DNA from: Saccharopolyspora rosea
GTDB lineage: Bacteria > Actinomycetota > Actinomycetes > Mycobacteriales > Pseudonocardiaceae
Length of the DNA stretch: 64,000 nt
Direction of reading: 5' to 3'
Assembly (NCBI RefSeq): GCF_025643595.1
Contig: NZ_CP102826.1
Coordinates: forward strand, 5,518,001 to 5,582,000
Made by a program: the position numbers and the translations under genes. Shown in pieces: positions 6,965-58,356 of the stretch. Each line of letters opens with the position of its first letter. Positions within the stretch are counted from its first letter, which is position 1. The notes beneath the pieces were generated by a model that saw nothing but the letters and a program-made list of their open reading frames with translations, did no database searches and was not told the DNA's origin.

Positions 6965-7004
6965 AAGGGAACTTTCCTGCCACATGTGGCAGGAAAGTTC
7001 CCTT
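6965..7004. repeat. Interspersed palindrome, copy 1 (perfect, 40 bp)
   Basis: The half unit is AAGGGAACTTTCCTGCCACA and the other half is its exact complement, centred on CACATGTG between 6984 and 6985. It lies between two minus-strand GNAT genes, just beyond the MITE-like element. It is one of eight full copies in the window. Confidence 0.9.
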
Positions 7005-7031
7005 CATCGCTGCCCGCCACCGGGCCGCGAC

Positions 7032-7514
7032 CTACGTCGCGTCGCCGAGGACCTTCTCGAACCAGTGCCGGGCGTACTGGTTGTCGTTGTAGGCGGGGAT
7101 CTCGACGTATCCCGACGACTCGTACAACGACCTCGCCTCGTGCAGCTCGGCCGCGGTGTCCAACCGGACCCGACGGCAACCCAGCTGCCGGGCGCGCTCC
7201 TCCAACTCCGCCAGCAACGCCCGCCCAGCTCCCCGGCCGCGCAGCTCCGGCGCGATCCACATGCGACGGATCTCGCCGATCCCACCGGACTCGGTGCGCA
7301 GCGCACCACAGCCCAGCACCCGCTCGTGCATCCGCACGACCAGGAAGATCCCGGCAGGAGGTGTGAAGTCGGCCTTCGCCGGGGGCGCCGCCCGGGCGGC
7401 GTCGAACCCGCTCGGGAACCGGCGGTCCAGCTCGGCGACGTAGGAGTCGAGCGCGGCGCGCGCCGCCGGGCCGTCGACGGGTTCGGGGTCGATGTTCCAG
7501 TGTTCCTCGCTCAC
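7032..7514 (-). CDS. GNAT-family N-acetyltransferase
   Basis: This 160-residue acetyltransferase has motif A in IRRMWIAPELRGRGAGRALL (about residues 84-103) and motif B in EARSLYESSGYVEIPAYN. The ending FEKVLGD is typical of small GNAT proteins that act on amino acids or small amines. The substrate is not predictable. The GTG at 7514 is followed by SEEHWNIDP and gives a full-length domain. The gene is divergent from the LysR regulator 71 bp away, an arrangement in which LysR proteins often control the neighbour; that link is only inferred. Confidence 0.82.
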   Translation of the reverse strand: MSEEHWNIDPEPVDGPAARAALDSYVAELDRRFPSGFDAARAAPPAKADFTPPAGIFLVVRMHERVLGCGALRTESGGIGEIRRMWIAPELRGRGAGRALLAELEERARQLGCRRVRLDTAAELHEARSLYESSGYVEIPAYNDNQYARHWFEKVLGDAT

Positions 7515-7585
7515 CCGGTCAGTCTCACCCCGACAACCCGTTCACCTCCATTTATCTGTCCTTGCCAAGCGTAAAGTGGAGTTTC

Positions 7586-8485
7586 ATGCTCGACCCGACC
7601 CGCCTGCTGGTGCTGTCCGCCCTCCGCGACCACGGCAGCGTGACCCGAACCGCCGAACACCTGGGCCGGACCCCGCCGGCGGTGTCCCAGCAGCTCGCCC
7701 GCCTGGAAGACGAGGCAGGCGCCCGGCTCGTCGAACGCCACGCGCACGGCGTCCACCTCACCCCGCTGGGCACCCAGCTGGCCGACCGCGCGGACCGCAT
7801 CGCCGCGGCCCTGCACGACGCCGAAGAGGTCGCCGCCCGCTTCCGCGACGAACACCGCAACCGCCTGCGGCTCGGCGCCTTCCCGACCGCCGGGCTCGGC
7901 CTGCTGCCGGACGCGCTCGCCGCGCTGCGCCACCGCCATCCCGGCGCCGAACTGTCGGTCGTCGACCTCGGCCCGCACGAGGGCATCGCCCGCGTCGCCG
8001 CCCACGAACTCGACCTCGCGCTCGTCGGGGAGTACGCGGAACCGCTCGACACCCCGCGCGGCGTCCGGCTCGTCCACCTCGCCGAGGACCCGATCCACGC
8101 CGTGCTGCCCGCCGAACACCCGGCCGCCACCCGCAGCTCCGTCCGGCTCGTCGACTTCCACGGCGCCGCCTGGGTCGCCGCCCCCACCAGCCTGCCCAAC
8201 CGGCGTCAACTGGAAGCCGCCGCGCACTCCCAGGGCTTCACCCCGAACGTCACCTTCGAGTTCGAGTCCTACGCGGTCGCCGAGGCGGTCGTGTCGGCCG
8301 GGGTGGCGGTCTCGTTCATCCCGCGGCTCGCCCTCACCAACCGCCCGGGCACCACCCACCGCCCCCTCACCCCGCCGCTGTCCCGCCACATCCACGCCGC
8401 GGTACCGACCGACACCCGGCACGCGCCGCTGACCGAGGTGTTCCTGGGGCTGCTGCGCACCCTCTGCGCGGAGTCGACGTGTTGA
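7586..8485 (+). CDS. LysR-family transcriptional regulator
   Basis: This 299-residue protein has an N-terminal winged helix-turn-helix (residues 5-62: LLVLSALRDHGSVTRTAEHLGRTPPAVSQQLARLE) and a LysR substrate-binding domain from about residue 88 onward. LysR proteins bind DNA as tetramers and respond to a small molecule. The ATG at 7586 is chosen because GGAG lies 5 bases upstream; a TTG at 7562 is also in frame. The stop codon lies inside an interspersed palindrome. Candidate targets are the divergent GNAT gene and the nearby lysine genes; neither is shown by the sequence. Confidence 0.88.
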   Translation: MLDPTRLLVLSALRDHGSVTRTAEHLGRTPPAVSQQLARLEDEAGARLVERHAHGVHLTPLGTQLADRADRIAAALHDAEEVAARFRDEHRNRLRLGAFPTAGLGLLPDALAALRHRHPGAELSVVDLGPHEGIARVAAHELDLALVGEYAEPLDTPRGVRLVHLAEDPIHAVLPAEHPAATRSSVRLVDFHGAAWVAAPTSLPNRRQLEAAAHSQGFTPNVTFEFESYAVAEAVVSAGVAVSFIPRLALTNRPGTTHRPLTPPLSRHIHAAVPTDTRHAPLTEVFLGLLRTLCAESTC

Positions 8486-8533
8486 TGAAGGGAACCTTCC
8501 TGTCACATGTGGCAGGAAGGTTCCCTTCATCAA
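8482..8533. repeat. Interspersed palindrome, copy 2 (52 bp)
   Basis: This is the longest copy. The outer arm TTGATGAAGGGAACC pairs with GGTTCCCTTCATCAA, and the centre is CACATGTG at 8504-8511. One position in the inner arm is a T opposite G, which would still pair as a wobble in RNA. It contains the stop codon of the LysR gene (8483-8485) and lies between convergent genes. Confidence 0.9.
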
Positions 8534-8544
8534 ACTCGGGCACG

Positions 8545-8569
8545 AAAAAAGGGGCCCGAACCGGACCCC
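8545..8569 (-). terminator. Intrinsic terminator at the end of the ATP synthase transcript
   Basis: Read on the minus strand, GGGGTCC-GGTTC-GGGCCCC folds into a 7-bp stem (one G·T pair) and is followed directly by six T residues. It lies 17 bp past the stop of the DUF2550 gene and suits the end of the atp–DUF2550 transcript. Confidence 0.7.
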
Positions 8570-8585
8570 GCGGAGAAGAATCAGA

Positions 8586-9032
8586 TCAGGACGCCCACGG
8601 CACCGACCGCCCCGGCGGGGCGGATTCGAGCCAGGACAGGAAACCGGTCAGCGCGTCGGAACCCATCGCGAGTTCGAGTTCCGGGCCGCGGCCGGTCAGG
8701 TCGAGCACGGTGGCCCCGGACGGCATGGCGTAGCTCTCCGCCAGGGACGGCGTGCGGCGCTGGGCGATCTCCACGTCACGCCGGTTGATCACCCAGTTCG
8801 GCCCGGAGCGCAGGCTCAGCGCCCGGTACCAGGCGAATTCCTCACCCCGGTAGTGCGCCACACCCAGGTGCCAGCCCCGGCCGCGCGCGTCCTTGGCGAC
8901 GCGCAGCGCCACGTCGATCCCACCGACCCGCAGATCGCGCAGCCGACGCCAGGCGAACACCACCACGACCAGGGCTGCCACGACGAGCGCCAGCCCAAGC
9001 AACGCTGCGAACCACACCACCGGGGAGCCCAT
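8586..9032 (-). CDS. DUF2550 membrane-anchored protein
   Basis: This 148-residue protein has one N-terminal membrane segment (residues 5-28) followed by a short positively charged stretch and a soluble domain (WHLGVAHYRGEEFAWYRALSL). This is the actinobacterial DUF2550 family, whose gene sits directly after atpC in mycobacteria and relatives. Its function is unknown. The ATG at 9032 lies 13 bp downstream of the atpC stop, so it is co-transcribed with the ATP synthase. Confidence 0.88.
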   Translation of the reverse strand: MGSPVVWFAALLGLALVVAALVVVVFAWRRLRDLRVGGIDVALRVAKDARGRGWHLGVAHYRGEEFAWYRALSLRSGPNWVINRRDVEIAQRRTPSLAESYAMPSGATVLDLTGRGPELELAMGSDALTGFLSWLESAPPGRSVPWAS

Positions 9033-9045
9033 GCGGCGACCCGGT

Positions 9046-9411
9046 TCAGGCCGTCTGCCCGGCCGCCCGCAGTCGACTGGTAGCCCGTGCTCGGGCCTCT
9101 TCGTCAGCGCTCTTGACGTCCTGGCGCGCCTGCGCCACGTCGATCTCCTCGGCCAGCTCGGCGGACTCCGCGAGCACGCTCACGCCCTCGTTGGTGACCG
9201 AGAGGAACCCGCCGTGCACCGCGGCCGTCACCGTCTCCTTGTCCGGCGTGGTGATCTTGACGACGCCACCCTCGATCAGCTCGCCGAGCAACGGCTCGTG
9301 CCCCGGCAGGACACCGATCTCGCCCTCGGTGGTCTGGGCCACCAGCGCGGTCGCTTCCCCGGACCACAGGCGGCGCTCGACAGCGACCAGTTGGACGGAC
9401 ATGTTGGCCAC
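9046..9411 (-). CDS. atpC: F1Fo ATP synthase subunit epsilon
   Basis: The epsilon subunit is part of the central stalk and can inhibit ATP hydrolysis. The 121-residue protein has the N-terminal beta-sandwich ([35 protein letters not shown]) and a C-terminal helix beginning [17 protein letters not shown]. The GTG at 9411 follows AGGAG with a 7-base gap. It lies 122 bp after the atpD stop, the largest gap in the operon. Confidence 0.96.
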
Positions 9412-9533
9412 GCGCGTCTCCTTTGTCGGGTGTGTGCCCGCAGTCTAACCGGTGTGCGACCCCGGCCGGGCGGGTGGTTGCTGCTGGCAAAAGGGCCGGG
9501 GCCCACCCGGACCCCGACCCCGCTGCCGTCCGC

Positions 9534-11895
<2,362 letters not shown>

Positions 11896-11906
11896 GGCCT
11901 ATCCGG

Positions 11907-13553
11907 TCACTTCTTCGGGGCGGGGCGGTTGACCTTGACGGTCTCCTGCCCCACCTCGTCGGCCGCCAGCGCCTCGGCGTCGGGCTCCTCCGGCGCCGCG
12001 GAGGTGCCTTCGCTGGTGGTGAACTGCTTCTTGTAGTCCTCCACCGCGTCCACGACCGCCTTCTCGCCGTCCTCGGACAGCTTGCCGGTCTCCACGATGT
12101 CCTTCAGGACCGTCTCGTGGGTGCGGCGCAGGTGCGCCAGGAACTCGGACTCGAACCGGCGGACGTCACCGACCGGAACGGAGTCCAGGTGGCCCTTGGT
12201 GCCGATGAAGAGGGAGACGACCTCCTCCTCGACCGGCAGCGGCTCACCCTGGCCCTGCTTGAGCACCTCCATCAGGCGCGCACCGCGGTCCAGCTGCGCC
12301 TTCGAGGCGGCGTCCAGGTCGGAGGCGAACGCGGAGAACGCCTCCAGCTCCCGGTACTGGGCCAGGTCCAGGCGCAGCGAACCGGTGACCGACTTCATCG
12401 CCTTGATCTGCGCGGAACCACCGACTCGGGACACCGAGATACCGACGTCGATGGCCGGGCGCTGACCGGCGTTGAACAGGTCGGACTGCAGGAAGCACTG
12501 GCCGTCGGTGATGGAGATGACGTTGGTCGGGATGTAGGCCGACACGTCGTTGGCCTTGGTCTCGATGATCGGCAGACCCGTCATCGACCCGGCGCCCATC
12601 TCGTCGGACAGCTTCGCGCAGCGCTCCAGCAGCCGCGAGTGCAGGTAGAACACGTCGCCCGGGTACGCCTCGCGCCCCGGCGGACGACGCAGCAGCAGGG
12701 AGATCGCGCGGTACGCCTCGGCCTGCTTGGTCAGGTCGTCGAAGATGATCAGGACGTGCTTGCCCTGGTACATCCAGTGCTGGCCGATCGCCGAACCAGC
12801 GTAGGGGGCCAGCCACTTCAGACCCGGCGAGTCGGAGGCCGGCGCGGCGACGATGGTGGTGTACTCCATCGCCCCGGCTTCCTCCAGGGACCGCTTCACA
12901 CCCGCGATCGTGGAGCCCTTCTGGCCGACCGCGACGTAGATGCAGCGGACCTGCTTGTCGGGGTCGCCGGACTCCCAGTTGCTCTTCTGGTTGATGATCG
13001 TGTCGACCGCGACCGTGGTCTTGCCGGTCTTGCGGTCGCCGATGATCAGCTGCCGCTGGCCGCGCCCGATCGGGGTCATCGAGTCGATGGCCTTGATGCC
13101 GGTCTGCAGCGGCTCGTGCACGCCCTTGCGCTGCACGACCGTGGCGGCCTGCAGCTCCATGGCGCGGTTGTCCTCGGCGACGATGTCACCGAGGCCGTCG
13201 ACGGGCTCACCCAGCGGGTTGACCACGCGGCCGAGGAAGCCGTCGCCGACCGGCACGGACAGCACCTTGCCGGTCCGGCGGACCTCCTGGCCCTCCTCGA
13301 TCTTCTCGGATTCGCCCAGGATGACGGCACCGATCTCCTGGCTCTCCAGGTTCATCGCGACGCCGTAGATGCCGCCCGGGAACTCCAGCAGCTCCTCGGT
13401 CATGACCGAAGGCAGGCCCTCGACATGGGCGATGCCGTCACCGGTATCGGTGACGACCCCGACCTCCTCGCGGCTGACCTCCGGGGAGTAGCTGGAGACG
13501 TACTTCTCGATCGCACTGCGGATCTCGTCCGACGAGATCGTCAGCTCCGCCAT
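11907..13553 (-). CDS. atpA: F1Fo ATP synthase subunit alpha
   Basis: The regulatory nucleotide-binding alpha subunit has 548 residues. Its P-loop is [13 protein letters not shown] (about residue 173) and it contains the conserved [20 protein letters not shown] segment. The C-terminal tail after residue 510 ([20 protein letters not shown]) is an acidic extension like that of other actinobacterial alpha subunits. ATG 13553 is the start; the gap from atpH is 50 bp. Confidence 0.98.
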
Positions 13554-13603
13554 GTCTCGTTCCTGCCCTCGGTTCGTTCTTGGAAGGGAGTTGGTATCGG
13601 CGC

Positions 13604-14434
13604 TCAGTCGGCGAGATCGCGCCGCAGGGAGTCCAGCCGACCCTTGATGCTGCCGTCGATGACCTCGTCACCGACCCGGATCAGCAGTCCGCCGCCCACC
13701 TCGGGATCGATCTCCAGGTGCAGGGCGATCGGCCGCGCGTAGATCCGCTGCAGGGTGCGCGCGAGCCGCTGCTGCTGCTCCTCGCCGAGCGGTGTGGCCG
13801 AGCGGACGTGCGCCACCGAGCGCTCCCGCCGCCTGGCCGACAGCTCGGCCAGCTCCTCCAGACCCTCGCTGACCCGCCTGCCGTGCGGCTGCGCGACGAG
13901 CTGGCGCACCAGGCTCAGGGTCACCGGCTCGACCTTGCCGGAGACGAGCTGGTCGACGACCGCGTACTTGCCTTCCACGTCCGCGGTCGGATCGGACAGC
14001 AGCCGCTCCAGGTCCACCTGCGACCCGATGATGCGGCCCAGCCGGAACAGCTCGTCCTCGACGGCGTCGAGCCGCCCGGCCCGTTCGGCCTGCACCAGCA
14101 GCGCGGTGCGGGCCATCCGTTCCAGGCCGCTGACCAGGTCCCGGGGGCTGGACCAGCGGGCCCGCACCGCCTCCACGACCACCGGCAGCGCCCGCGGACC
14201 GAGCCGGTCCGCCAGCAGCCCGCGGGCCAGGTCCTCCCTGGACCGCGGGTCGGTGGAGGCGTCGGCGAGCGCTCGGCGCAGCGTGGACTCGCGCCCCAGC
14301 AGGGCGGCCACGCCGAACAGCTCGTCGGCGAGCCCGGTGATCTCCGCGGCCTGGGCCCCGTCGGTGGCCTGCAGCAGCTGCAGCTCGGTGGCTGCCAGTG
14401 CGTCGCGGCTCGCGGCGTTCACGAGGGTGCTCAA
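13604..14434 (-). CDS. atpH: F1Fo ATP synthase subunit delta
   Basis: The delta subunit links F1 to the peripheral stalk. The 276-residue protein is longer than the roughly 180-residue proteobacterial form but normal for actinobacteria, whose delta often carries extra helical length. The C-terminal OSCP signature reads [33 protein letters not shown]. The start is a TTG at 14434 (translated [13 protein letters not shown]). It lies 21 bp after the atpF stop. Confidence 0.95.
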
Positions 14435-18221: not shown

Positions 18222-18261
18222 AAGGGAACTTCCCTGTCACATGTGGCAGAAAGGTTCCCTT
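18222..18261. repeat. Interspersed palindrome, copy 3 (imperfect)
   Basis: This 40-bp copy is centred on CACATGTG (18238-18245). The outer arms AAGGGAAC and GTTCCCTT are intact, but the middle of the arms (TTCCCTGT against GCAGAAAG) has several mismatches, suggesting an older or decaying copy. It lies with copy 4 in the 358-bp gap between wecA and the tsaC/sua5 gene, which otherwise shows no gene. Confidence 0.85.
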
Positions 18262-18312: not shown

Positions 18313-18356
18313 GCAAGGGAACTTTCCTGTCAGATCTGACAGGAAGGTTCCCTTGC
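18313..18356. repeat. Interspersed palindrome, copy 4 with variant core CAGATCTG
   Basis: The arms GCAAGGGAACTTTCCTGTCA and TGACAGGAAGGTTCCCTTGC pair along the whole 44 bp except one T/G-type position. The centre is CAGATCTG rather than CACATGTG, so both halves changed together and the palindrome was preserved. It lies 52 bp downstream of copy 3. Confidence 0.9.
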
Positions 18357-18387: not shown

Positions 18388-19038
18388 TCACGACGCGGGC
18401 TCGACCGGCACGCCGAGGACCTCGGAGAGCTCCTCGGCGGAGATCGCGCCGAGGCGCAGGACCCGCGGGGTGCCGCCGGTGAGGTCGACGATGGTCGAGG
18501 GCACCGGCTCGCCGGACGGGCCGCCGTCGAGGTAGACCGACACCGAGTCGCCGAGCTGGTCGCGCGCTTCGGCGGCGGTGGAGGCGGGCGGCTGCCCCGT
18601 GCGGTTGGCGCTGGAGACGGCCATCGGGCCGACCTCGCGGAGCAGGTCGAGGGCGACCGGGTGCAGTGGCATCCGCAGGTTGACGGTGCCCCGGGTGTTG
18701 CCGAGGTTCCAGGACAGCGATGGTGCCTGCGGCAGGATGATGGACAGCCCACCCGGCCAGAACGCCTCGATGAGCGCCCGCGCCTGCTGCGGCACGGACA
18801 TCACCAGACCATCCACTGTGGACCAGGAACCGACGAGGACGGGCACCGGCATGTCCGGTCCTCGCCCCTTGGCGGCCAGCAGCGCGGCCACCGCGTTGGA
18901 GTCGAAGGCGTCGGCGCCGATCCCGTAGACGGTGTCGGTGGGCAGCACGACGAGCCCACCGGCACGAACCGTGTTGGCCGCGGCGGCGAGACCGGACTCT
19001 CGGCCGTCCGGGCGACTGCAGTCGAAGACGGTGCTCAC
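18388..19038 (-). CDS. tsaC: L-threonylcarbamoyladenylate synthase (Sua5/YciO/YrdC family)
   Basis: This 216-residue enzyme makes threonylcarbamoyl-AMP from threonine, bicarbonate and ATP for t6A modification of ANN-decoding tRNAs. The YrdC domain covers nearly the whole protein: GGLVVLPTDTVYGIGADAF (about residue 28), the KGRGPDMPVPVLV segment and the SSANRTGQPP loop. There is no C-terminal Sua5 domain, so it is the short form. Start at GTG 19038. In actinobacteria the gene follows prmC closely; here an alpha/beta hydrolase gene lies between them on the opposite strand. Confidence 0.93.
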   Translation of the reverse strand: MSTVFDCSRPDGRESGLAAAANTVRAGGLVVLPTDTVYGIGADAFDSNAVAALLAAKGRGPDMPVPVLVGSWSTVDGLVMSVPQQARALIEAFWPGGLSIILPQAPSLSWNLGNTRGTVNLRMPLHPVALDLLREVGPMAVSSANRTGQPPASTAAEARDQLGDSVSVYLDGGPSGEPVPSTIVDLTGGTPRVLRLGAISAEELSEVLGVPVEPAS

Positions 19039-22371: not shown

Positions 22372-22587
22372 GGCCTTGTCCTCTCTTCTGGGCCGCCGGG
22401 TCCCGTGACCTCCTCATGCCTCGGAGCACGGGTGAACCGGAGCCGGAACCAACTTCGCATTCTGCCAGACGAAGGCTGCTGACCTGGAACGCAGGGGGTC
22501 CGCCCGGTATTCCCGGCGACCGCTCGTCGCGCCGGTCACACCGCCCGTCGCAGAGTCGTGACCGTCTGTCGCTGAACCCCGCGCGGG

Positions 22588-32989: not shown

Positions 32990-33630
32990 CCGTGCGCGTC
33001 CTCACCGCCACCGCGGGCACCCTGGCGCTGCTGCTGCTCGGCGCGGCGCTCGGCCTGCTCATCAAGGTCCCGACGCTGTCCGCCGATCCGCGTCCGACCG
33101 CCGTCGACACCGGCTTCGCGCAGGACATGACCACCCACCACCAGCAGGCGGTGACCATGGCCACCCTGGCGCGCGAACGCACCTCCGACGCCGCGGTGCG
33201 CCAGCTCGCCTTCGACATCGACACCAACCAGCGGGACCAGATCGGCCGCATGCAGGGCTGGCTCGACCTCTGGGGCCAACCCGCGCAACCCACCGGCCCG
33301 GCCATGCAGTGGATGACCGCGCAGCACCACCACGCCGCCTCGCTGACCGCCGACGCCCGGACCACCGGCCCCATGCCTGGCATGGCCACCGCGGACGAAC
33401 TCTCCCGCCTCCGGGCGCTGCGCGGCCCGGAGTTCGACGTCTACTTCCTCCAGCTGATGCTGCGCCACCACGAGGGCGGCGCCCCCATGGCCGACTACGG
33501 CGCCCGGCACGCGGCCGTGCCCGCCGTCCGCGAGCTGGCCGCGAACATGCTGGGCGCGCAACGGGCGGAGGCCGAGTTCATGCGTCGGATGCTCGCGGCT
33601 CGCCACGCCGGGGTCCTGCCTTCCCGGTGA
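32986..33630 (+). CDS. DUF305 secreted or membrane-anchored protein
   Basis: This 214-residue protein has an N-terminal signal or anchor (residues 5-25, TATAGTLALLLLGAALGLLIK) and a His/Met-rich DUF305 domain: DMTTHHQQAVTMATLA, QHHHAASL, and the second repeat FLQLMLRHHEGGAPMADY. DUF305 is a ferritin-like, often metal-associated helical domain; its role is not settled. GTG 32986 overlaps the DUF3105 stop (GTGA). His-rich motifs and the CDF exporter gene nearby suggest a metal-handling neighbourhood, which is inference. Confidence 0.9.
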   Translation: MTVRVLTATAGTLALLLLGAALGLLIKVPTLSADPRPTAVDTGFAQDMTTHHQQAVTMATLARERTSDAAVRQLAFDIDTNQRDQIGRMQGWLDLWGQPAQPTGPAMQWMTAQHHHAASLTADARTTGPMPGMATADELSRLRALRGPEFDVYFLQLMLRHHEGGAPMADYGARHAAVPAVRELAANMLGAQRAEAEFMRRMLAARHAGVLPSR

Positions 33631-33632
33631 GG

Positions 33633-33652
33633 AAGGGAACCTTTCTGTCACG
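33633..33652. repeat. Half copy of the interspersed palindrome
   Basis: AAGGGAACCTTTCTGTCACG matches the left half of the palindrome and stops at the centre. It begins 2 bp past the DUF305 stop and is followed 12 bp later by a degenerate full copy. Confidence 0.75.
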
Positions 33653-33664
33653 CAGGGCGCGAGG

Positions 33665-33704
33665 AAGGGAACTCCTCCGCCACGGATGACAGGAAGGTTC
33701 CCTT
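33665..33704. repeat. Interspersed palindrome, copy 5 (degenerate core)
   Basis: Outer arms AAGGGAAC and GTTCCCTT are intact over the 40-bp span, but the core is CACGGATG rather than CACATGTG and the inner arms no longer pair well. It is followed by the CATCGTC flank also seen near other copies. Confidence 0.8.
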
Positions 33705-33744
33705 CATCGTCATGGCACCCGACCGTCCTCTCGCTGGTGCGAGG

Positions 33745-33784
33745 AAGGGAACTTTTCTGCCACATGTGACAGGAAAGTTCCCTT
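33745..33784. repeat. Interspersed palindrome, copy 6
   Basis: 40 bp centred on CACATGTG (33761-33768). The left arm is AAGGGAACTTTTCTGCCACA and the right arm differs from its complement at two positions. It is the third unit in a 152-bp cluster between the DUF305 gene and the convergent CDF gene. Confidence 0.88.
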
Positions 33785-33795
33785 GCTCCCCTTCC

Positions 33796-34713
33796 TCACC
33801 AGGTGAGCGCCTGGCAGCGCCTGGCGCACTCCGCCGGTTCGACCTGGAGCGTGGCGTGGTCGATGCGGTAGCGCTCGGACAGCAGGCGCTGCGCGGCGAC
33901 CAGGACACCACCGTGGTCGGCGTCCGCGCCGGTGGTCAGGTGGGCCGAGGCGACCTCCATACCGGAAGTGAGGGTCCACACGTGCAGGTCGTGGACCTCG
34001 GTGACCGACGGGAGCTTGGCCAGCTCGTCGCGCAGCTCGGTGACGTCGACGCGGTCGGGGGCCTGTTGGACGAGGATCCGCAGCGCCTGGCGGGCGAGCT
34101 TGAAGGTGCGCGGCAGGACGAACAGGCCCACCGCGACCGCCACGATCGGGTCGGCCAGGTACCAGCCGAAAGCCCAGGTCAGCAGCCCACCGAACAGGAC
34201 CCCGACGGATCCGACGGTGTCGGCGAGCACTTCCAGGTAGGCGCCGCGAACGTTCAGGCTCTCGTCCGCGCCACTCCGGAGCAGGCCGAACACGGCGAGG
34301 TTCGCCACGAGCCCGGTCGCCGCGGTGAGGATCATCGGCAGCCCGGCGACCTCCGGGGGCTGGCGGAGCCGGTCGACGGCCTCGTAGACGATGTAGCCGG
34401 CGACGCCGAACAGCAACATCGCGTTAGCGAGCGCCGCCAGCACTTCCACGCGGTAGAGGCCGAAGGTCCGCTTGCCGCTGGTGGGCCGTTGAGCAGCGGT
34501 GATCGCCGCGAGCGCCATCCCCACCCCGAGCACGTCGGTGAGCATGTGCCCGGCATCGGACAGCAGCGCGAGCGACGAGCTGGTGAACCCGACGACCGCC
34601 TCCAGCACGAAGAAGGCGAACAGGATCACGAACGCCCCGACCATCCGCCGCCGGTACCTTCCGGACGCGCTCACCGCATCGGCTGCGGTGCCGTGCCCGT
34701 GGCCATGCCCCAT
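33796..34713 (-). CDS. Cation diffusion facilitator family metal exporter
   Basis: This 305-residue CDF (CzcD/ZitB-type) transporter has a His-rich start MGHGHGHG, six membrane segments, and the metal-binding HxxxD sites in LLSDAGHMLTDV (about residue 50) and LEVLADTVGSVGVL (about 155). A C-terminal cytoplasmic metal-binding domain ends VHDLHVWTLTSGMEVASAHL. It exports zinc, cobalt or a similar divalent metal by proton antiport. ATG 34713 follows a strong AGGAGGTG; upstream extension crosses a palindrome repeat and is rejected. Confidence 0.92.
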   Translation of the reverse strand: MGHGHGHGTAADAVSASGRYRRRMVGAFVILFAFFVLEAVVGFTSSSLALLSDAGHMLTDVLGVGMALAAITAAQRPTSGKRTFGLYRVEVLAALANAMLLFGVAGYIVYEAVDRLRQPPEVAGLPMILTAATGLVANLAVFGLLRSGADESLNVRGAYLEVLADTVGSVGVLFGGLLTWAFGWYLADPIVAVAVGLFVLPRTFKLARQALRILVQQAPDRVDVTELRDELAKLPSVTEVHDLHVWTLTSGMEVASAHLTTGADADHGGVLVAAQRLLSERYRIDHATLQVEPAECARRCQALTW

Positions 34714-34798: not shown

Positions 34799-34846
34799 GA
34801 GCAAGGGAACTTTTCTGCCACATGTGGCAGAAAAGTTCCCTTGCTC
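34799..34846. repeat. Interspersed palindrome, copy 7 (perfect, 48 bp)
   Basis: Every position pairs: GAGCAAGGGAACTTTTCTGC on the outside left and its complement on the right, centred on CACATGTG (34819-34826). It is the best-preserved copy with the GAGC/GCTC ends. It lies between the CDF gene promoter region and the tRNA-Arg gene. Confidence 0.92.
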
Positions 34847-34951: not shown

Positions 34952-35024
34952 GCCCTCGTAGCTCAGCGGATAGAGCACTGCCCTCCGGAGGCAGGTGTCG
35001 CAGGTTCGAGTCCTGCCGAGGGCG
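34952..35024 (+). tRNA. tRNA-Arg (anticodon CCG)
   Basis: A complete cloverleaf can be read. The acceptor GCCCTCG pairs with CGAGGGC. The D arm is GCTCAGCGGATAGAGC. The anticodon stem CTGCC/GGCAG holds the loop CTCCGGA with anticodon CCG. The T arm is GCAGG-TTCGAGT-CCTGC, and a discriminator G ends the 73-nt gene. It reads CGG codons. Its 3' 51 bases form part of the left attachment site of the integrated element, and the gene stays intact because the element restores the same sequence. Confidence 0.96.
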
Positions 35025-51297: not shown

Positions 51298-51301
51298 CAC
51301 G

Positions 51302-51347: not shown

Positions 51348-51707
51348 ATGGGTCTCGATCGCACCGAAATCGCAGATCAGCTGCGCAAGGAAATCAGGTC
51401 GGGCACGCGCCCGGCTGGGAGCGAACTTCCCCCATATCGAGTACTCGCCAAGCAACTCGGAGCGGCCCCCAACACCGTCGGAGAAGCCATCCGGCTCCTC
51501 GCGACCGAGGGGCTGGTAACCATCAGGACGAAGAGGCCTGCCAAGGTCCGCGAGGTCGACGACGACACCGGACCGTCGCAGGAAGAACGCACCTCGGCCT
51601 TCCGGAACGAACTGAACGAGGCGCAAGCCGAACTCCGCGACATCCGGGCCCGGATCAACGCTCTGGACCGGAGGCTCAGCGGCCTGCTCACCGAACTCAA
51701 CACCTGA
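51348..51707 (+). CDS. GntR-family repressor (KorSA-like)
   Basis: This 119-residue regulator has a GntR winged helix (IADQLRKEIRSGTRPAGSELPPYRVLAKQLGAAPNTVGEAIRLL, residues 8-51). It is followed by a short C-terminal helical tail (AQAELRDIRARINALDRRLS) in place of a full ligand-binding domain. Small GntR repressors such as KorSA of pSAM2 silence replication and transfer genes. The three palindromes at 51241-51313 are the likely sites. ATG 51348, with AAAGGGG upstream. Confidence 0.88.
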   Translation: MGLDRTEIADQLRKEIRSGTRPAGSELPPYRVLAKQLGAAPNTVGEAIRLLATEGLVTIRTKRPAKVREVDDDTGPSQEERTSAFRNELNEAQAELRDIRARINALDRRLSGLLTELNT

Positions 51708-51714
51708 CCGCACC

Positions 51715-51921
51715 TCAGTCGAGGACGCCGCGGAGGAACGTCGTCAGACCGTCCACCGCCCCAGCGAGAGCAGTGGAGGCGTTCCGGGCGAACTCCGCGG
51801 CGTCCGTCGGGTGCTTCACCACCAGCGCAAGGACGGCCAGCAACACGAGGCCACCAAGAACCTTCGAGAGAAGACCGCTGCCGGCCTTCGGCATCGGGAA
51901 CGGGAACTGGGACTTGCCCAT
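51715..51921 (-). CDS. Small single-span membrane protein
   Basis: This 68-residue protein has a polar start MGKSQFPFPMPKAGSG, one membrane helix (LLSKVLGGLVLLAVLALVV) and an amphipathic tail (FARNASTALAGAVDGLTTFLRGVL). No family is recognised. It is convergent with gntR, 7 bp from its stop, and divergent from the HTH-TPR gene. Both could be driven from the repeat-rich 200-bp space. Confidence 0.6.
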   Translation of the reverse strand: MGKSQFPFPMPKAGSGLLSKVLGGLVLLAVLALVVKHPTDAAEFARNASTALAGAVDGLTTFLRGVLD

Positions 51922-52035
51922 GTTGACTACCCCTTTCGAGAGTCAGGACGGCTCCGACGACCTGCCGCATTGCGGGGATCGGAACCGTTTTCGCTGTCAT
52001 GACTCAAGAATCGGGGCGATCTGCAAGGATGAATA

Positions 52036-52135
52036 GATGAGTCGGAGGTGAGTCGGGGGTGAGCGAGCCGACTCACCAGGCGGTGACCAGCCGAAACGTT
52101 GAGAGGGGGCGGTGATCCGGTGGATGAGTCGGAGG
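52036..52135. promoter_or_regulatory. TGAGTCGG repeat cluster, candidate operator of the HTH-TPR regulator
   Basis: GATGAGTCGGAGG occurs twice (52036-52048 and 52123-52135, the second at the regulator's start codon). A 10-bp perfect inverted repeat GGTGAGTCGG/CCGACTCACC (52047-52056 with 52068-52077) lies between. Such clustering next to a regulator gene suggests autoregulation. Confidence 0.45.
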
Positions 52136-53235
52136 CGACGACGCTGAAGCGGGCGCGGCTGGCCGCAGGAATGAGCCAGAGCGAGGTACGCGCCAAGCTC
52201 CGCGAAGCCCGGAAGCGACACGGGAAGATGCCTCCGAAGGACGGCAGCCTCAAGCGGATGTACACCGAGTGGGAACAGGGGCGGGTTTCCCCTGTGGACT
52301 GGAAGGACGAGCTGTGCGAGGTCTTCCAGCTGCCGCCGGCGGCGCTCGGTTTCGTAGAGGTTGCCGCGCCACCATCGATCGAGTTGCCGTCGACGCTGGA
52401 CGTCGTGCGCATCGATGCCGAGCTGGTGGAGATGCTGGACGGCCAGACGAACCACTATCGACTGATGGACCGCCGCGTCGGGTCGGCGATCATCCCTCAG
52501 ACCGTCGCCCACGTCGAACACATGCAGGGCATCCTGCGGGCCGCCCTGCCCGGCAAGCACTTCGGTGAGGCTGCCGTGGCGCTCGCCGAAGCGGCTGCGC
52601 TAGCGGGTTGGCAGTCACTCGACGCCGGTGACGTCAAGCAGGCTTGGAACCTGCACGACGTCGCTCGGACCGCCGCGCGCCAAGGCGACGATCCAGCTGC
52701 GTTGGCACACGTCACGGCGCAGCAGGCGTACGCGCTGTTGGACGCGGGGAGGGCTTCCGAGGCGGTCGAGCTGGTGCAGTACGCGCACAATCCGGAGGCG
52801 GCGAAGAGGGTGCCGCCTCGGCTCCGAGCATGGCTCGCCGCGGCCGAAGCAGAGTTCCTCGCCGCTGCCGGGCAGGGAGACCGGGCACGTCACCTGCTCG
52901 ACATGGCGGCCGACGTCCTCCCCGAAGGGGATGTCGATCCCGAACTGCCGTACCTGATGCTCAACCAGACGCACCTCGCACGTTGGCGCGGGCACTGTCT
53001 CGCCCGACTCGGCGCGGACGAAGCGGTCGACGACCTGACGGCCGCGCTCGACGGCGACCAGGCGTTGTCCTCGAAGCGCGCGGAATCGAGCCTGCGCGTG
53101 GACCTGGCGCTGGCGCTCCGGAAGCGTGGCGACGTCGCGGGATCGAAGGAACATGCACACCGGGCGCTGGAGCTGGCGGGCCGTACAGGGTCGGCCCGCC
53201 AGCGTGCGCGCATGACTCGACTCCTTGCCGACTAG
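52120..53235 (+). CDS. HTH-TPR transcriptional regulator
   Basis: This 371-residue protein has an N-terminal HTH of XRE type (LKRARLAAGMSQSEVRAKLREA ... MYTEWEQGRVSP, residues 8-55). It is followed by tetratricopeptide-like helical repeats (VAHVEHMQGILRAALPGKH to KEHAHRALELAGRTGSARQRA) for binding a peptide or protein ligand. Proteins of this layout control AICE and phage activation genes. The GTG at 52120 is used because GAGAGGGGG precedes it. Its stop codon is interlocked with that of the Nudix gene on the other strand at 53232-53235 (CTAG serves both). Confidence 0.8.
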   Translation: MDESEATTLKRARLAAGMSQSEVRAKLREARKRHGKMPPKDGSLKRMYTEWEQGRVSPVDWKDELCEVFQLPPAALGFVEVAAPPSIELPSTLDVVRIDAELVEMLDGQTNHYRLMDRRVGSAIIPQTVAHVEHMQGILRAALPGKHFGEAAVALAEAAALAGWQSLDAGDVKQAWNLHDVARTAARQGDDPAALAHVTAQQAYALLDAGRASEAVELVQYAHNPEAAKRVPPRLRAWLAAAEAEFLAAAGQGDRARHLLDMAADVLPEGDVDPELPYLMLNQTHLARWRGHCLARLGADEAVDDLTAALDGDQALSSKRAESSLRVDLALALRKRGDVAGSKEHAHRALELAGRTGSARQRARMTRLLAD

Positions 53236-53783
53236 GCATCGTCGCGGGGGAACGCCAGGTAGTGGAGCAGCCCGACGAGCGTGCCGGAGTTCTTGATCTG
53301 TCCCCCCTGGATGAGTTCGGGAACCTTAGCGAGGGGTACCCACTCGAACTTCCCCTCGTTGACCTCCGTCGCGTCTCCCACGCGCTCGGCTCCCCGACCG
53401 AGGAAGAGGTGGTTAGGGTTGCGAAGCATCCCGACAGCGGGCTCAAAGACGAGGATCGGCTCCAGTGACCGCGGGCGGTAGCCGGTCTCCTCGATGAGTT
53501 CCCGCAGCGCCGTCTCCCGTGGTTCCTCCCCAGCGTCGATGATCCCGCCGGGGAGTTCCCAGTTCCAGATGTCGGGCGCGAACCGGTGTCGCCACGCCAT
53601 AAGCACGTTCTGACCGCTGTCGTCGATCAGAACGGTCATCGCCGGGGCGGGGAACCAGACCGTGTGGTGTTCGAACCGCTGGCCGGACGGCTGCGAGATG
53701 TCGGCAAGGCCGACGCGTACCCAGTCGCTCTCGTAGACGGTGCGCTCACCGTGAACGATCCACTTGGACGCCTCATCGGTCAC
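53232..53783 (-). CDS. Nudix hydrolase, possible Pif-like immunity factor
   Basis: This 183-residue protein has the Nudix box GGIIDAGEEPRETALRELIE followed by ETGYR (about residues 80-104) and a fold like ADP-ribose pyrophosphatases (WNWELPGG). It lies beside the regulators at the right end. In pSAM2, pif encodes a Nudix protein that limits transfer to recipients already carrying the element and is repressed by KorSA. The gene position makes this the better Pif candidate of the two Nudix genes, but the role is inferred. GTG 53783 follows AGAAAGG. Confidence 0.8.
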   Translation of the reverse strand: MTDEASKWIVHGERTVYESDWVRVGLADISQPSGQRFEHHTVWFPAPAMTVLIDDSGQNVLMAWRHRFAPDIWNWELPGGIIDAGEEPRETALRELIEETGYRPRSLEPILVFEPAVGMLRNPNHLFLGRGAERVGDATEVNEGKFEWVPLAKVPELIQGGQIKNSGTLVGLLHYLAFPRDDA

Positions 53784-54146
53784 GAGTAGTTGACCTTTCT
53801 GCTCGACTTCGCTGGCGACGCGGTCACGGCGTGCCCTCTGGCCCCAGTCTCCCACCCTCAAGAGCGCCACAGAGCCCCGACGAGTACGAGTCGGCCGATC
53901 GGCCGAGATCGCAGTACGGGTGGCTCGACGGCGTACACAGGACGCATAACGGGGCAAATTTCGCGCCCTGAGATCCTCTGAGACGCGAGAAGGAGCGCTA
54001 GTGCAGGTCTTCCCCGCCGCTTCTTGTAGAAGCGGAATGAGAGCGTGGTCATCCTCTGCTGTTCCTCTCCCTGCGTGCAATCCACGTGCGATGCGCCCGT
54101 GGAAAGACCTCGTATGTGCCTCTGATCTGCATAAACGCCGGGTTCC
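53784..54146. other. 363-bp non-coding right end of the AICE
   Basis: No convincing gene is seen. A hairpin CCGCTTCT-TGT-AGAAGCGG lies at 54017-54035, and the arm-type motif at 54074-54087 sits 60 bp before attR. The stretch likely holds the upstream region of the Nudix gene and the right integrase-binding arm. Confidence 0.5.
54074..54087. other. Possible integrase arm-type site, right
   Basis: CGTGCAATCCACGT matches the left motif at 35133-35146 in 13 of 14 bases. In the circular form the two would flank the joined attP core. Confidence 0.4.
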
Positions 54147-54198
54147 AGCACTGCCCTCCGGAGGCAGGTGTCGCAGGTTCGAGTCCTGCCGAGGGCGC
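54147..54198. other. attR core (52-bp direct repeat, right)
   Basis: Exact second copy of the tRNA-Arg 3' segment at 34974-35025. It lacks the acceptor 5' strand and most of the D arm, so it is not a functional tRNA gene; it marks the right boundary of the element. Confidence 0.93.
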
Positions 54199-54205
54199 TT
54201 CCGGT

Positions 54206-54237
54206 GAAGCCGCGTCTGACCAGTCAGGCGCGGCTTC
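54206..54237. terminator. Original terminator of tRNA-Arg, now at the right end of the element
   Basis: GAAGCCGCG (54206-54214) and CGCGGCTTC (54229-54237) form a 9-bp stem with a 14-nt loop and a short T-rich tail. It lies 8 bp past the tRNA-derived repeat, where a tRNA terminator would be before insertion. Confidence 0.6.
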
Positions 54238-54331
54238 TTCGCGTGATGGTGCGAGCCGCGCCGGGGGCTAGGTGCCGCTGCGGGTTCCGCTCGTCGAATA
54301 CAGTTCCCGGCATGTCGATCCATGCGGGGAC

Positions 54332-56167
54332 ATGACGGGCGGACGACCGGCCTCGATGCTGTTGGTGGTCCTGGTGGTGGTCGGCGGGATCGGGGGCCTG
54401 GGAGCCGCGGTGGGGCTCGGGGCCGCGTCGGTGTTGGCGGCTCTCACCGGGTTGTTCTGCTTCATGGCCGCGGCCGGTGGTGCGTTGCGGCCCGATCTCC
54501 GGGTGCTCGCCGGGGTGGCGCCGGCGATGGTGGTCGGTGTCGCCGTGCCGCGCCTGGTCGCCGAAGCGTCCGAATGGGCGGGGATCGCGCTGGTCGCGCT
54601 GATCGTGTTCGTCGCAGCGCTGCTGCCCGCGCTGGGCAGGCGGTACGTCCAGGTGGGCCTCGGGTTGGGCATGGCGTCGCTGTTCGGCTACGGCTACCAG
54701 CTGACCGGGGTGGCGTCACCGGTGCAGATCGTCGGTGCACCCGTGCTGGCCGTGGTCGTGGTGGTGGCGTTGCGCGCGCTGATCGGCGCGCGTGACCCGA
54801 GCGGGCCGACGCGGGCGGTGCTGGCCGAGGCGTTGAGCGCGGAACCGCCGCCCGACCCGGCCGAATCGCTGCGCGCCTGGCACGGCGACCGGCCGGTGCG
54901 CTGGACCGCGCAGGTGCTCGCCGGTGCCATCGAGTTCCGCGCCGTTCTCGGCGTGCTGGCGGACCGCTGCCGGATGCTCCCGGCCGACCGGGCACAGGCC
55001 CTTGAGTCCACACTGGACTCCGCTCGGGAGGAGGCCGCGCGGCTCGCCGGAACGGTGCGCTCCCGGGTGCCGGACGATCCCGCCGAAGTGGCCCGGGAGG
55101 CCCTCTCCCCCGGGTTTCCCGGTGCGACGGCGGACTTGGTCGACCGGATGTGGAGCGCTCTGGATTCGGTCCGGTCGGCAGCGTTCAGGCGAGACACCAC
55201 GCGAGTGCGGGTCTCCGCCGAGCCGTGGCGGGAAGTCCTGCGCGTGACGTCCGGGGGCACGCTGTCGTGGCGTTCCACGCAATTGCGGCACGCCGTGCGC
55301 TGTGCGGTCGGGGTGCTCGTCGCGCTCGTCGTGGCGTCGCTGCGCCCCGGAGATCCGCTCACGGTGCCGTTCCTGATGACCACGTTCGCGATCATGCAGC
55401 CGGAATGGCGCGACACGCTGGCCAAGGCCGTCCAGCGGGTGGTCGGTGTCCTCGCCGGAGCCGTGGTGCTGGCAGCGGTGATCCGGTTCCTGCCGACGTC
55501 CGCACTGGTGCCGGTCGCCGTGCTGGCGTTGCTGGTCGGATTCTGGTTCATGCGCTCGCGACCAGTCGTCTTCAACGGCTGCATCGTGCTGATGAGCGTC
55601 GGTCTCAACGCGACCACGCGGCAGCTGGATCCGGCGGACGTGCTCGTCGAATACCTGGTGTTGATCGGCCTCGCCGTGGTCATCGGGCTGCTGTTCGGCT
55701 TCGCCGCCGTGCCCGGTGTGCGCCGGCCCGGCTCGCGGGAACTCGTCGACCGCGCGTGCTCGTCGGTCCGCGCTCTGCTGCTGCACGTCGCCGACGTCAT
55801 GCGCGGTCGGGAACGCGATCATCGGGAGATGGCGCGGCTCTTCCGGACGGCCGTGCGGGACCAGCAGGCGCTCGTCGCCGCCAAGCCCCGGAACGACGCG
55901 GCAGCCGAAGCGCTCGACACCGCGGCGGAAAGCCTGACCGGGCTCATGCGTCAGTCGGTCGCCCTGCTGCTCGCGCCCCGGAACGCCGGAACCGCCGCGG
56001 CCGTCGAGCGGACCGCGGAACTGCTGGTCACCCCGGAGGAGGGCGAACCCGCCGCGCTACCGGACGCGGACGACGAAACCCGGCTGGTGGTCGCCGCGGC
56101 CACGTCGGACGTCCTGCGGCTCAGACAGGTCGCCGACGTCGTGCGCGATGGTCAGCCGGTCCCGTAG
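54332..56167 (+). CDS. FUSC-family membrane protein
   Basis: This 611-residue protein has two sets of about five hydrophobic segments (residues 10-170, and about 335-480 with VGVLVALVVASLRPGDP and PFLMTTFAIMQPEWRDTLAKAVQRVVGVLAGAVV) separated and followed by helical cytoplasmic regions. This matches the FUSC family (fusaric acid resistance, aromatic acid exporter-like). The substrate is unknown. ATG 54332 is used; an earlier in-frame GTG at 54272 lies near the terminator. The stop overlaps the convergent GntR pseudogene by 16 bp. Confidence 0.8.
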   Translation: MTGGRPASMLLVVLVVVGGIGGLGAAVGLGAASVLAALTGLFCFMAAAGGALRPDLRVLAGVAPAMVVGVAVPRLVAEASEWAGIALVALIVFVAALLPALGRRYVQVGLGLGMASLFGYGYQLTGVASPVQIVGAPVLAVVVVVALRALIGARDPSGPTRAVLAEALSAEPPPDPAESLRAWHGDRPVRWTAQVLAGAIEFRAVLGVLADRCRMLPADRAQALESTLDSAREEAARLAGTVRSRVPDDPAEVAREALSPGFPGATADLVDRMWSALDSVRSAAFRRDTTRVRVSAEPWREVLRVTSGGTLSWRSTQLRHAVRCAVGVLVALVVASLRPGDPLTVPFLMTTFAIMQPEWRDTLAKAVQRVVGVLAGAVVLAAVIRFLPTSALVPVAVLALLVGFWFMRSRPVVFNGCIVLMSVGLNATTRQLDPADVLVEYLVLIGLAVVIGLLFGFAAVPGVRRPGSRELVDRACSSVRALLLHVADVMRGRERDHREMARLFRTAVRDQQALVAAKPRNDAAAEALDTAAESLTGLMRQSVALLLAPRNAGTAAAVERTAELLVTPEEGEPAALPDADDETRLVVAAATSDVLRLRQVADVVRDGQPVP

Positions 56168-56871
56168 AAGTCGTTGATGTGGTTGCGCACCAGGGCCGCG
56201 GCCCGCTCCGGATCGTGCCGTTCGACGGCCTCCAGGATCGCGCGGTGCTCGGCCCGCACCGGTCCGGAGGTCCGCTGCCAGTCGTCGACGCGTTCGCTGG
56301 CGTCGACCATCCGACGGTGGATCGCCGCGCGCAGCGAACTCATCAGGTAGCAGGCCAGGGCGTTCCCGGTGGACTCCGCGATGCGCACGTGGAACTCGGT
56401 GTCCAGCCGGTTGAAGTCGCGGGCGGACAGCTCCGGAGCGTCCATCCGGTCCAGGATCCGCCGCAGTTCGGCGTGGTCGGCTTCGGTCGCGTGCCTGGCC
56501 GCCTCGGCGACCGACCACTCCTCCAGCATCAGCCGGGTGCGGATCACGTCGCCGTCGCTGAAGTGGCCGAGCGCGAGCTGCATCTTCAGCAGAATCGCGA
56601 AACCGCCCTCGCCGGGTCTGCCGACGAACACCGTGCCGCCCTCCGGGCCGCGTCCCGGACGGACGTCGACGATGCCCATCGCTTCCAGCACGCGCAACGC
56701 CTCCCGCAGCGACGGGCGGCTGACCCCGAGCAGCTGCGCCAGCTCGCGCTCGCTGGGCAGCCGATCGCCCGGCGCCAGCAGACCGTCGAGCATGCGCTAC
56801 TCGATCTGCGCCATGACCTGCTCGTAGGTGCGCACCCTGCGCACCGGCTCCCACGCGCTCGCGGAACTCAC
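56152..56871 (-). pseudogene. FadR-type GntR regulator interrupted by an in-frame amber codon
   Basis: Downstream of the stop the frame encodes 213 residues. It shows the remainder of a GntR helix-turn-helix (LAPGDRLPSERELAQLLGVSRPSLREALRVLEAMGIV) and a FadR/FCD ligand domain (AELRRILDRMD, DTEFHVRIAESTGN, EHRAILEAVERHD). In the same frame just upstream lies VRTYEQVMAQIE, the normal first helix of such regulators, then TAG (56799-56797), then RMLDGLL. CAG to TAG would explain it. The original start is probably GTG 56871 with GAGGAG upstream. Translation could restart at ATG 56793, losing helix 1. It is the first of three damaged genes here. Confidence 0.75.
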
Positions 56872-56905
56872 GCTTCTCCTCAAGTGGGCCTGTGTTCGTT
56901 CCACC

Positions 56906-58240
56906 CTACGGCCGCGCCGCGGTTTCCAGCTCCCCGCGCAACCGCACCGCGAGCACGGAGTCGTCGACCTCGACGTCCGCCCAGCCGACGACACCACCCC
57001 GCCGGACATCCGCCCGCAGACGACATCCCCCGGCGAGTCCGATCGGCAGGGCCGCGCGGTTCAGCGACAGTTCGACCGGGGCGAGTCGCCCGTGGACCGC
57101 GTAGCCGCCCTCGCCGTCGAGGACCTCCCCCGCAGGTCGCGTTTGGCCACCGCCACGACATCTCCGCGGAACGCCGTCGGGCAACCCGTCGGCTCGTTGC
57201 GCAGCGCCGCCGAGGCGATGCTGACGCCCAGTTCCAGGCCGATCAGGTGGTACGGGCGGTACAGCGAGGCGTAGCGCCCGGCGGAATCGGTGCGCACCCC
57301 GTACTCGGCGAAGCACTGCGCCGCGTAGTCGGTGGGCGCTTCGAACGTCACGTACACGCCCCAGCGGAGATCGCGGAGCACCTCGCTGCCGTCGCGGTGC
57401 AGGCTGGAGGCGACCTCCACCGTGCCGTTGCGGCTCAGCTCGCCACCCACCTGGGCGGGGCGGAACACCTCGGGCAGCTCGTCCACTCCGCACGGCGGGA
57501 ACATCAGGCCCTGTCCTGCGGAGTCAGCCCGGTCGCGTTGGCCACCGCCGCCATCTCGATCGCCGACTTGGTGCCATCCAGGAACGAATTGAACATCCGC
57601 GGGTTGAAATCCCCGCGTGCCAACTGCTGTGCGGTCAATCCGTAGTGGTCCCAGACGGTGTCCGGAGTGGACTCGTGGTACGCGGGGAGGTACTTGGTGC
57701 CCTTCCCGGCCGCCACCACGCCGAAACCCGCGGTGCGCGCCCAGTCCACCAGCTCGCAGATCAGCGCGGGCTGGTCGCCGTAAGCCATCGAGTAGACGAC
57801 GCCGGCGCGGCGGGCGCGCTCGGTCAGCAGCGGTCCCACCAGGCAGTCGGCCTCGACGTTGACCATCACGACGTGATGTCCCGCGTCGATCGCGCGCACC
57901 GCGTGCTCCGTCCCGGCCACCGGGTCGCCCGTGACCTCCAGGACGACTTCGACGTGCGGGGCGGCGACCAGCACCCCCGCGTCGTCGGTGACGTGCGTGC
58001 CGCCGGTGCGCCGCGCCTCGGCGAGGCTCGTCGCCGCGTAGCGCTCGGCGGGCCAGCCGGTGCGTCCGAGCGCCGCCCGCGCCGCTGCGGGTCCAGGTCC
58101 GCCACGCCGACGACGTGGATGCCGGAGGTGGTGAGCGCCTGGGTGAGGAACATCGACGCGAACTTGCCCGCGCCGACCACACCGACCCGGACGGGGCCGC
58201 GCTCGCGCGCCCGCGCCTGCAGGAGCGCGTGGAGGTTCAT
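56906..58240 (-). pseudogene. NAD(P)-binding oxidoreductase with SAF domain, three frameshifts
   Basis: Pieces in three frames align end to end. Part 1 runs from ATG 58240 with the Rossmann motif [20 protein letters not shown] to about 58090. Part 2 (to 57504) reads [21 protein letters not shown] through GKGTKYLPAYHES to GLTPQD. Part 3 continues [15 protein letters not shown] to VVAVAKRDLR near 57130. Part 4 is EVLDGEGGYAVHGRLAPVEL, the SAF-type C-terminal part, ending at 56906. Together they make about 445 residues, the expected length of the homoserine-dehydrogenase-like SAF oxidoreductase family. Three indels mean no full product. Confidence 0.78.
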
Positions 58241-58308
58241 CCGGCACCCGTCCCTTCCGGCCGCGCGGTGCGGCCGCGGTTGGGGAGGATCTCCGATGGC
58301 CGGGTGGA

Positions 58309-58356
58309 GAGCAAGGGAACTTTTCTGCCACATGTGACAGAAAAGTTCCCTTGCTC
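58309..58356. repeat. Interspersed palindrome, copy 8 (48 bp)
   Basis: GAGCAAGGGAACTTTTCTGC on the left and its complement on the right, centred on CACATGTG (58329-58336), with a single C opposite A near the core. It is almost identical to copy 7, 23.5 kb away. It lies between two damaged genes. Confidence 0.9.

Follow-up and report, generated by a model that had tools for sequence, protein, structure and literature searches.

The stretch analysed here, hereafter the window, comprises 64,000 nucleotides of the Saccharopolyspora rosea chromosome and contains a family of intergenic palindromes, each formed by an inverted pair of an 18-25 bp unit, AAGGGAACYTTYCTGYCAC. The window (1-64000) is contained in a larger segment of this chromosome (C1:5,477,996-5,681,200) to which the units are confined. 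A preliminary description listed eight near-perfect palindromes, and all eight places indeed hold such a sequence, although only six are near-perfect, with 0-2 mispairs in the inner 20-bp arms, and two are imperfect. Palindrome 1 (6965-7004) consists of two perfect 20-bp arms, with 4 bp separating the 18-bp units, and is located 27 bp off the 3' end of a minus-strand gene (7032-7514). Palindrome 2 (8482-8533; 26-bp arms, 1 mispair) lies in a convergent gap between genes ending at 8485 and 8586, the first of which it overlaps by 4 bp, at the stop codon. Downstream of the minus-strand gene at 18388-19038, the same gap holds the imperfect palindrome 3 (18222-18261; 20-bp arms, 4 mispairs in 20) and palindrome 4 (18315-18354, previously given as 18313; 20-bp arms, 1 mispair). 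Palindrome 5 (33665-33704), the other imperfect copy, has a degenerate left arm with 3 mismatches in 18, and 8 mispairs in 20, and palindrome 6 (33745-33784; 20-bp arms, 2 mispairs) lies in the convergent gap 33630-33796. Palindrome 7 (34799-34846; 24-bp arms, no mispair) precedes a tRNA gene (34952-35024) by ~105 bp, and palindrome 8 (58309-58356; 24-bp arms, 1 mispair) is found downstream of a minus-strand gene (58363-58776). The centre reads CACATGTG in six of the eight, CAGATCTG in the copy listed at 18313 and CACGGATG at 33665. At up to 3 mismatches the window contains 18 half-units, including two single ones that were absent from the preliminary description: one on the plus strand (33633-33650), directly after a plus-strand gene ending at 33630, and one on the minus strand (62088-62105; 1 mismatch), reported as inside the called open reading frame 60760-61647. 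By our gene calls, which were made with a custom codon-usage script and not with a standard caller, all eight palindromes are intergenic and mostly near a 3' gene end, as had been described, with the stop codon overlap of palindrome 2 as the exception. The region 34847-58308, which includes the element that the preliminary description itself labelled AICE, is free of units, in agreement with the reported absence of palindromes from this element.

The 18-bp unit, AAGGGAACYTTYCTGYCA, is arranged head to head in the palindromes, and the spacing between units is 4 bp in 24 of the 26 palindromes of the segment and 5 bp in the other two, when arms with up to 4 mismatches are counted. Across genomes the consensus is roughly [CG]A[GT]NA[AT]GGGAACYTTYCTGYCAC. 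The conserved unit of ~18-25 bp reads GA[GT][GC]AAGGGAACYTTYCTGYCAC in the host genome (G000), TGCGAGSAWGGGAACYTTCCTGTCAC in genome G013 and GTGACAGNAAGGGAACHTTCCTGTCAC in G034, a genome of another genus, and its flanks are lineage-specific. Units occur not only as inverted pairs but also as single copies or direct repeats. In G013 most units stand alone or form direct arrays, whose spacers are largely unrelated in sequence, and here too the unit sequence is kept.

The host genome is a single contig of 6,562,638 bp. Allowing up to 3 mismatches, it contains 42+42 copies of the half-unit, while a reversed control pattern gives 0 matches. Only four matches lie outside the segment, each with 3 mismatches and without a partner. 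At up to 1 mismatch, all 70 units fall within 5,477,996-5,681,200 (203 kb), for which the probability under random placement is ~1e-102; the idea that there might be only a few copies genome-wide can therefore be dismissed. Searching each genome with its own unit pattern gave the same picture elsewhere, and in seven genomes pooled, 423 of 429 units were located in the orthologous segment (G000 70/70, G020 68/68, G005 61/61, G013 126/127, G034 45/47, G004 29/30, and G006 24/26). The assemblies of G006 and G004 are in many contigs, and the remaining two G006 units are on a separate contig. The segment measures 0.16-0.29 Mb across genomes and contains 25-40 occupied places in G000, G013, G020 and G005. 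In six genomes the outermost units lie at similar genes, corresponding to G000 genes 1-13 on the left and genes 172-209 on the right. A stretch of ~26 kb (G000 genes 179-203) is unit-free in G000, G013, G020 and G034, and contains five units in G006. Unit density in G000 peaks in the middle of the segment and is thin at the edges.

The gene dnaA lies close to base 1 in both G000 and G034, and its position in G013 is C2:2,705,796. The distance between segment and dnaA is ~0.8-1.4 Mb in G000, G034, G013 and G412, the chromosomes of which measure 4.8-8.3 Mb. In G412, which belongs to genus g65 and has dnaA at base 1, the orthologous segment lies at ~1.06-1.22 Mb, on the opposite side of dnaA, and is internally reordered. 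Nine 8-kb samples inside it (72 kb) contained 26 of the 78 units of this genome, the sample at genes 183-190 being empty, while ~490 kb sampled outside, including two 4-kb edge samples, contained none by the same pattern and a single less strict match; a uniform distribution of units would predict ~6 (P=0.002). In ten 20-kb samples of G000 the GC skew is weak, with no more than a hint of a change of sign at 2.5-3.0 Mb. The unit-bearing segment appears, with no search for dif made, to be neither the origin nor the terminus region.

Matches to the unit were found in 28 of 390 genomes of the family. These comprise 21 of the 22 genomes of the own genus, G012 being the one without, G034, and others in genera g65 and g16, plus G196, which has one match. 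In genus g65, four of six genomes carry units (68-88 each), and G408 and G409 carry none. The pattern is present across three genera. In other families of the order none of 32 genomes matched, and viral contigs contained no exact match to a 19-mer. Units are present in each of the five named Saccharopolyspora alanine-dehydrogenase loci and in none of the 75 others among the 80 loci, which include Actinopolyspora. Genome G212 of genus g16 has 14 copies of a one-mismatch variant, AAGGGGACTTTCCTGTCA, and the 10 places listed for it lie on three contigs; this may be a dispersed cousin of the unit.

Occupied positions are shared between genomes. Counting a gap as shared when a unit is detectable in both genomes, the numbers of gaps occupied in both, in the first only, in the second only and in neither were 29/2/0/77 for G013-G020, 22/0/1/51 for G013-G005, and 9/2/10/58 for G000-G013. 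The fourfold-site difference between G013 and G005 is 0.358, at which an unconstrained 18-mer would remain with at most one change with a probability of 0.004. For G013-G020 the difference is 0.225 and the corresponding probability 0.063, and this pair is less informative for that reason. Between genera, the gaps occupied in both, in G034 only and in the other genome only were 5/6/4 with G013, 6/7/5 with G020, 6/5/2 with G005, and 3/9/0 with G000, which is weaker than within the genus, yet above chance (P about 0.005-0.007 each; P=0.005 for G034-G005). Substitution rates, which require detection in the first genome only, were calculated only where the orthologs on either side of a gap were both present (69 units of G013 compared with G020, 45 with G005, and 47 units of G005 compared with G004). 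Among G013, G020 and G005, the number of substitutions per aligned site was 0.074-0.094 in the unit, 0.184-0.205 in the adjacent spacer, 0.144-0.169 at other positions of the same gaps and 0.138-0.152 in unit-free gaps. The unit therefore changes about half as fast as the neighbouring spacer, part of the divergence of which is concealed by the alignment.

Some lineages lack units or seem to be losing them. G012 is as near to G013 (88.4%) as G020 is (88.1%), yet has no units genome-wide. On the one 115-kb contig of the segment that could be compared, it keeps none of 15 gaps occupied in G013; between the two genomes array blocks differ by clean presence or absence, and many G012 gaps are simply without the block. 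On G012:C77 (L138), at ~67680-67800 and 77840-77900, two gaps that hold units in G013 contain TTTCAATTGAAA/TTCCATTGAA palindromes. One palindrome in a gap of G012 has the look of a GC-richer relic. G004 and G005 have a fourfold difference of only 0.068 and have 16 occupied gaps in common, with 7 occupied in G005 only and none in G004 only. G005 units differ from G004 by 0.066, with flanks at 0.060-0.076, and gapping affects 45% of unit positions, 40% of adjoining DNA and 5-7% of other intergenic DNA. The units in G004 thus seem to decay. The comparison of G004 with G005 alone gives no direction, and we place the relaxation in G004 because the G005 units are constrained relative to G013 (0.094 versus 0.205). 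Several segment genes match G004 in part only, which suggests frameshift errors in this assembly, a caution for the G004 results. Loss of a single trans-acting partner would produce such a pattern, in which units are constrained in some lineages and relax jointly in others.

With respect to genes, units are found preferentially in convergent rather than divergent gaps in G000 (6/16 versus 1/30, P=0.005), G013 (17/31 versus 7/46, P=0.0004) and G020 (14/16 versus 5/33, P=1.5e-6), and the proportions were 6/16 versus 4/30 in G006 and 8/25 versus 4/32 in G004. In codirectional gaps a unit lies at a median distance of 44-132 bp from the upstream 3' end, which in each of the seven genomes is shorter than its distance to the next start. 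Of note, a unit pair lies within the coding sequence of gene 126 (L018:4033-6891), judged by eye to resemble a sensor kinase gene. Five of the seven genomes examined (G000, G013, G020, G005 and G034) have it at the corresponding position and in the same frame. In G020 the second arm has 3 mismatches, while one unit is left in G004 and none in G006.

The data thus show that units are confined to one segment, that their positions are shared, that they change more slowly than their surroundings, and that some lineages have none or have units in decay. These findings can be read as follows. The unit may be a DNA site for a dispensable trans-acting protein that marks one chromosomal domain, a reading to which we give a probability of about 0.45; protein, binding and domain role are inferred. 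A predicted sequence-specific DNA-binding protein, which cells can do without, would recognise the unit, and selection, which we infer to be the cause of its conservation, would keep the sites within one gene segment of 0.16-0.29 Mb, as singles, direct arrays or inverted pairs, mostly behind genes. The putative protein might mark this segment as a domain, for instance if it bridges the sites or directs SMC (structural maintenance of chromosomes) complexes to the segment, as MatP does via matS in the terminus (Ter) domain. The sparser use of divergent gaps in G000, G013 and G020 would also fit this reading.

Several observations weigh against this proposal. No binding protein was found in family searches of 68 of the 218 called segment genes of G000 (59 with Pfam and 9 more with NCBIfam only). 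The genes searched encode ordinary enzymes, transporters and regulators (MerR, LysR, MarR, TetR and PucR-type, and a sigma factor), and 10 of the 59 gave no match. Nor is any segment gene that is present in all five comparison genomes wholly missing from G004. G000 and G013 have only 9 of 21 occupied gaps in common, and one G034 palindrome lies far off, at 4.71 Mb. Among G013, G020 and G005, 0.05-0.19 of the unit positions are gapped, and therefore array copy number turns over and is not conserved. Promoter avoidance, judged from convergent versus divergent gaps, is weak in G005 (8/24 versus 6/33, P=0.22), and G034 shows none (4/16 versus 6/22). Whole genomes exist without units (G012, G408 and G409), and the lineage-specific flanks could derive from concerted evolution. 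As to a linked factor gene in the segment, no convincing candidate emerged, and the genes that G004 is without do not occur in all unit-bearing genomes.

The foremost alternative is that the unit is an old non-autonomous repeat that spread over short range from a founder near the middle of the segment, through local copying or through template switching, and is now kept uniform by recombination among its copies, without any domain function. The expansion and contraction of arrays, the clean presence or absence of array blocks between G013 and G012, the peak of density in the middle of the G000 segment and the lineage-specific flanks would all fit such a repeat, as would the location of units behind genes, where gaps tolerate insertions. 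However, gaps that became occupied anew are nearly absent among G013, G020 and G005, the unit evolves at a lower rate than the spacers, no transposase was present among the segment proteins examined, and the units end at similar genes in six genomes, with which the G412 samples are consistent. The ~26 kb that is unit-free in four genomes also speaks against local spread, though G006 has five units there. We consider this explanation unlikely, but one to be taken seriously. If it is nevertheless correct, such lasting short-range copying would itself be new. The similar palindromes that occur genome-wide in Amycolatopsis circi and Amycolatopsis nivea raise another option, namely that the segment was imported from a species with genome-wide palindromes and is now a relic. 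Since gene order in the segment is syntenic among G000, G034 and G013, ortholog divergence there is ordinary (75-88%), and the unit is constrained and shares positions between genomes, such an origin is very improbable.

The units could also act in RNA, as terminators or as mRNA stability hairpins at the 3' ends of upstream genes. Their proximity to the upstream 3' end in all seven genomes is in line with this, as are the 37 sense against 13 antisense units in codirectional gaps of G013, and the arms of G000 palindromes, which agree at two variable positions more than in shuffled pairs (P about 0.02 each). At a third variable position, however, the arms mismatch, and the strand preference is inconsistent over the seven genomes: G013 leans towards sense and G005 towards antisense (15/6/8 sense, antisense and mixed gaps in G013, 10/10/4 in G020, and 6/9/12 in G005). 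Moreover, an intrinsic terminator is a stem followed by a T-run, whereas none of the 26 segment palindromes has at least 6 T in the 10 nucleotides after either arm, the sequence is kept in G013, where most units are not in inverted pairs, and a role in RNA leaves the confinement to one segment unexplained. We regard a function of this kind as quite improbable, and the preference expressed in the preliminary description for DNA sites over normal terminators is borne out by the lack of T-runs, the inconsistent strand bias and the single and direct-repeat copies. Its other suggestion, repetitive extragenic palindromic (REP) elements that depend on a Y1 transposase of the RAYT type, is not supported. 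For MITE-type elements, also named there, which would come with a target-site duplication and a matching transposase, the relevant observation is the clean presence or absence of arrays. REP elements and their clusters (BIMEs) are short palindromic extragenic repeats near 3' ends, and in being short, multicopy, extragenic, palindromic and clustered the units resemble them; however, the units are confined to one segment and not dispersed over the genome, unlike two REP-like palindrome families of other genera that are genome-wide. A match to Y1_Tnp (PF01797) was found in 9 of 24 genomes searched, 8 of them unit-bearing and the ninth the unit-free G012, and 15 had none, including G000, G013, G020 and G034. 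For the host genome this rules out RAYT-driven movement, save by a transposase that falls outside PF01797, and as a general explanation such movement is hardly credible. The palindromes match no Rfam family either, and no account of the motif was found in the literature searched by topic or sequence, so that the possibility of a catalogued repeat family, also raised before, found no support.

The well-known regional site systems of bacterial chromosomes serve either the origin (parS) or the terminus (matS). parS sites are few, are bound by ParB and cluster near oriC. The units are likewise clustered in one part of the chromosome, but their segment lies at least 0.8 Mb from dnaA, and the parS consensus gave no match at up to 2 mismatches in nine segments. 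The MatP/matS system of gamma-proteobacteria is closer, since it also comprises many copies of a short motif limited to one large chromosomal domain. However, matS, with its ~13 bp consensus GTGACRNYGTCAC, surrounds the terminus, whereas the segment lies 0.8-1.4 Mb from dnaA, and the unit is longer (18-25 bp) and forms arrays. The matS consensus had no exact match in the same nine segments, seven of which bear units. In E. coli, 28 (13+15) matS copies are distributed over the 838-kb Ter domain, and nine matS across 253 kb suffice to exclude MukBEF, according to the parts of PMC10945525 consulted, a scale comparable, by analogy only, to the 25-40 occupied places of a unit segment. Transcriptional macro-regions have been described in S. 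erythraea, and the parts of PMC3610266 consulted do not mention the motif.

Regional sites on bacterial chromosomes often signal an organising system, and the proposed domain-marking system bears on whether bacteria form domains away from origin and terminus. It would, tentatively and with the odds against it, be the first actinobacterial domain-marking system of neither origin nor terminus, with a dedicated DNA-binding protein and tens of sites that delimit 0.2 Mb of core genes, a domain not split up when the chromosome is rearranged. If true, the natural losses in G012, G408 and G409, and perhaps one in progress in G004, make such a system testable, and with sites conserved across three genera and species without them, comparison could name the protein.

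Two palindrome families of other Pseudonocardiaceae are also intergenic and ~46-47 bp long, but the places listed for them, which are part of the total, extend across numerous contigs or the greater part of a chromosome, whereas the present unit is regional. The family GTGAGGGGAACCCTNANGGA of Amycolatopsis, which has a GGGAACC core in common with the unit, is genome-wide in A. circi (L064, 652 half-units) and A. nivea (L069, 249 half-units; genomes G081 and G083), and none was found in A. saalfeldensis or A. pretoriensis. A 46-bp family, CTCGTGAGTGNTNNGNCCGGTT..., is likewise genome-wide in G047:C1 (11.76 Mb; 226 half-units). Regional confinement as a general rule for palindrome families was rejected, as these two families proved genome-wide. 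In Actinomadura sp. HBU206391 (L091), the 11-mer CGTGATCATGC was counted 11 times on the two strands of a 10-kb contig taken together, and may represent a further family of intergenic repeats. A repeat distinct from the unit, GCGGAACCTCAGCGG / GAGAAAGCGGC, also intergenic, is present in the window at 6824-6880, in the segment, and in 6 of 10 genome-spread samples (L025, L026, L028, L032, L033 and L034). Finally, the only known RNA families that Rfam gave in the window are a tRNA and, at 22391-22446, an L31-Actinobacteria ribosomal protein leader (RF03158).

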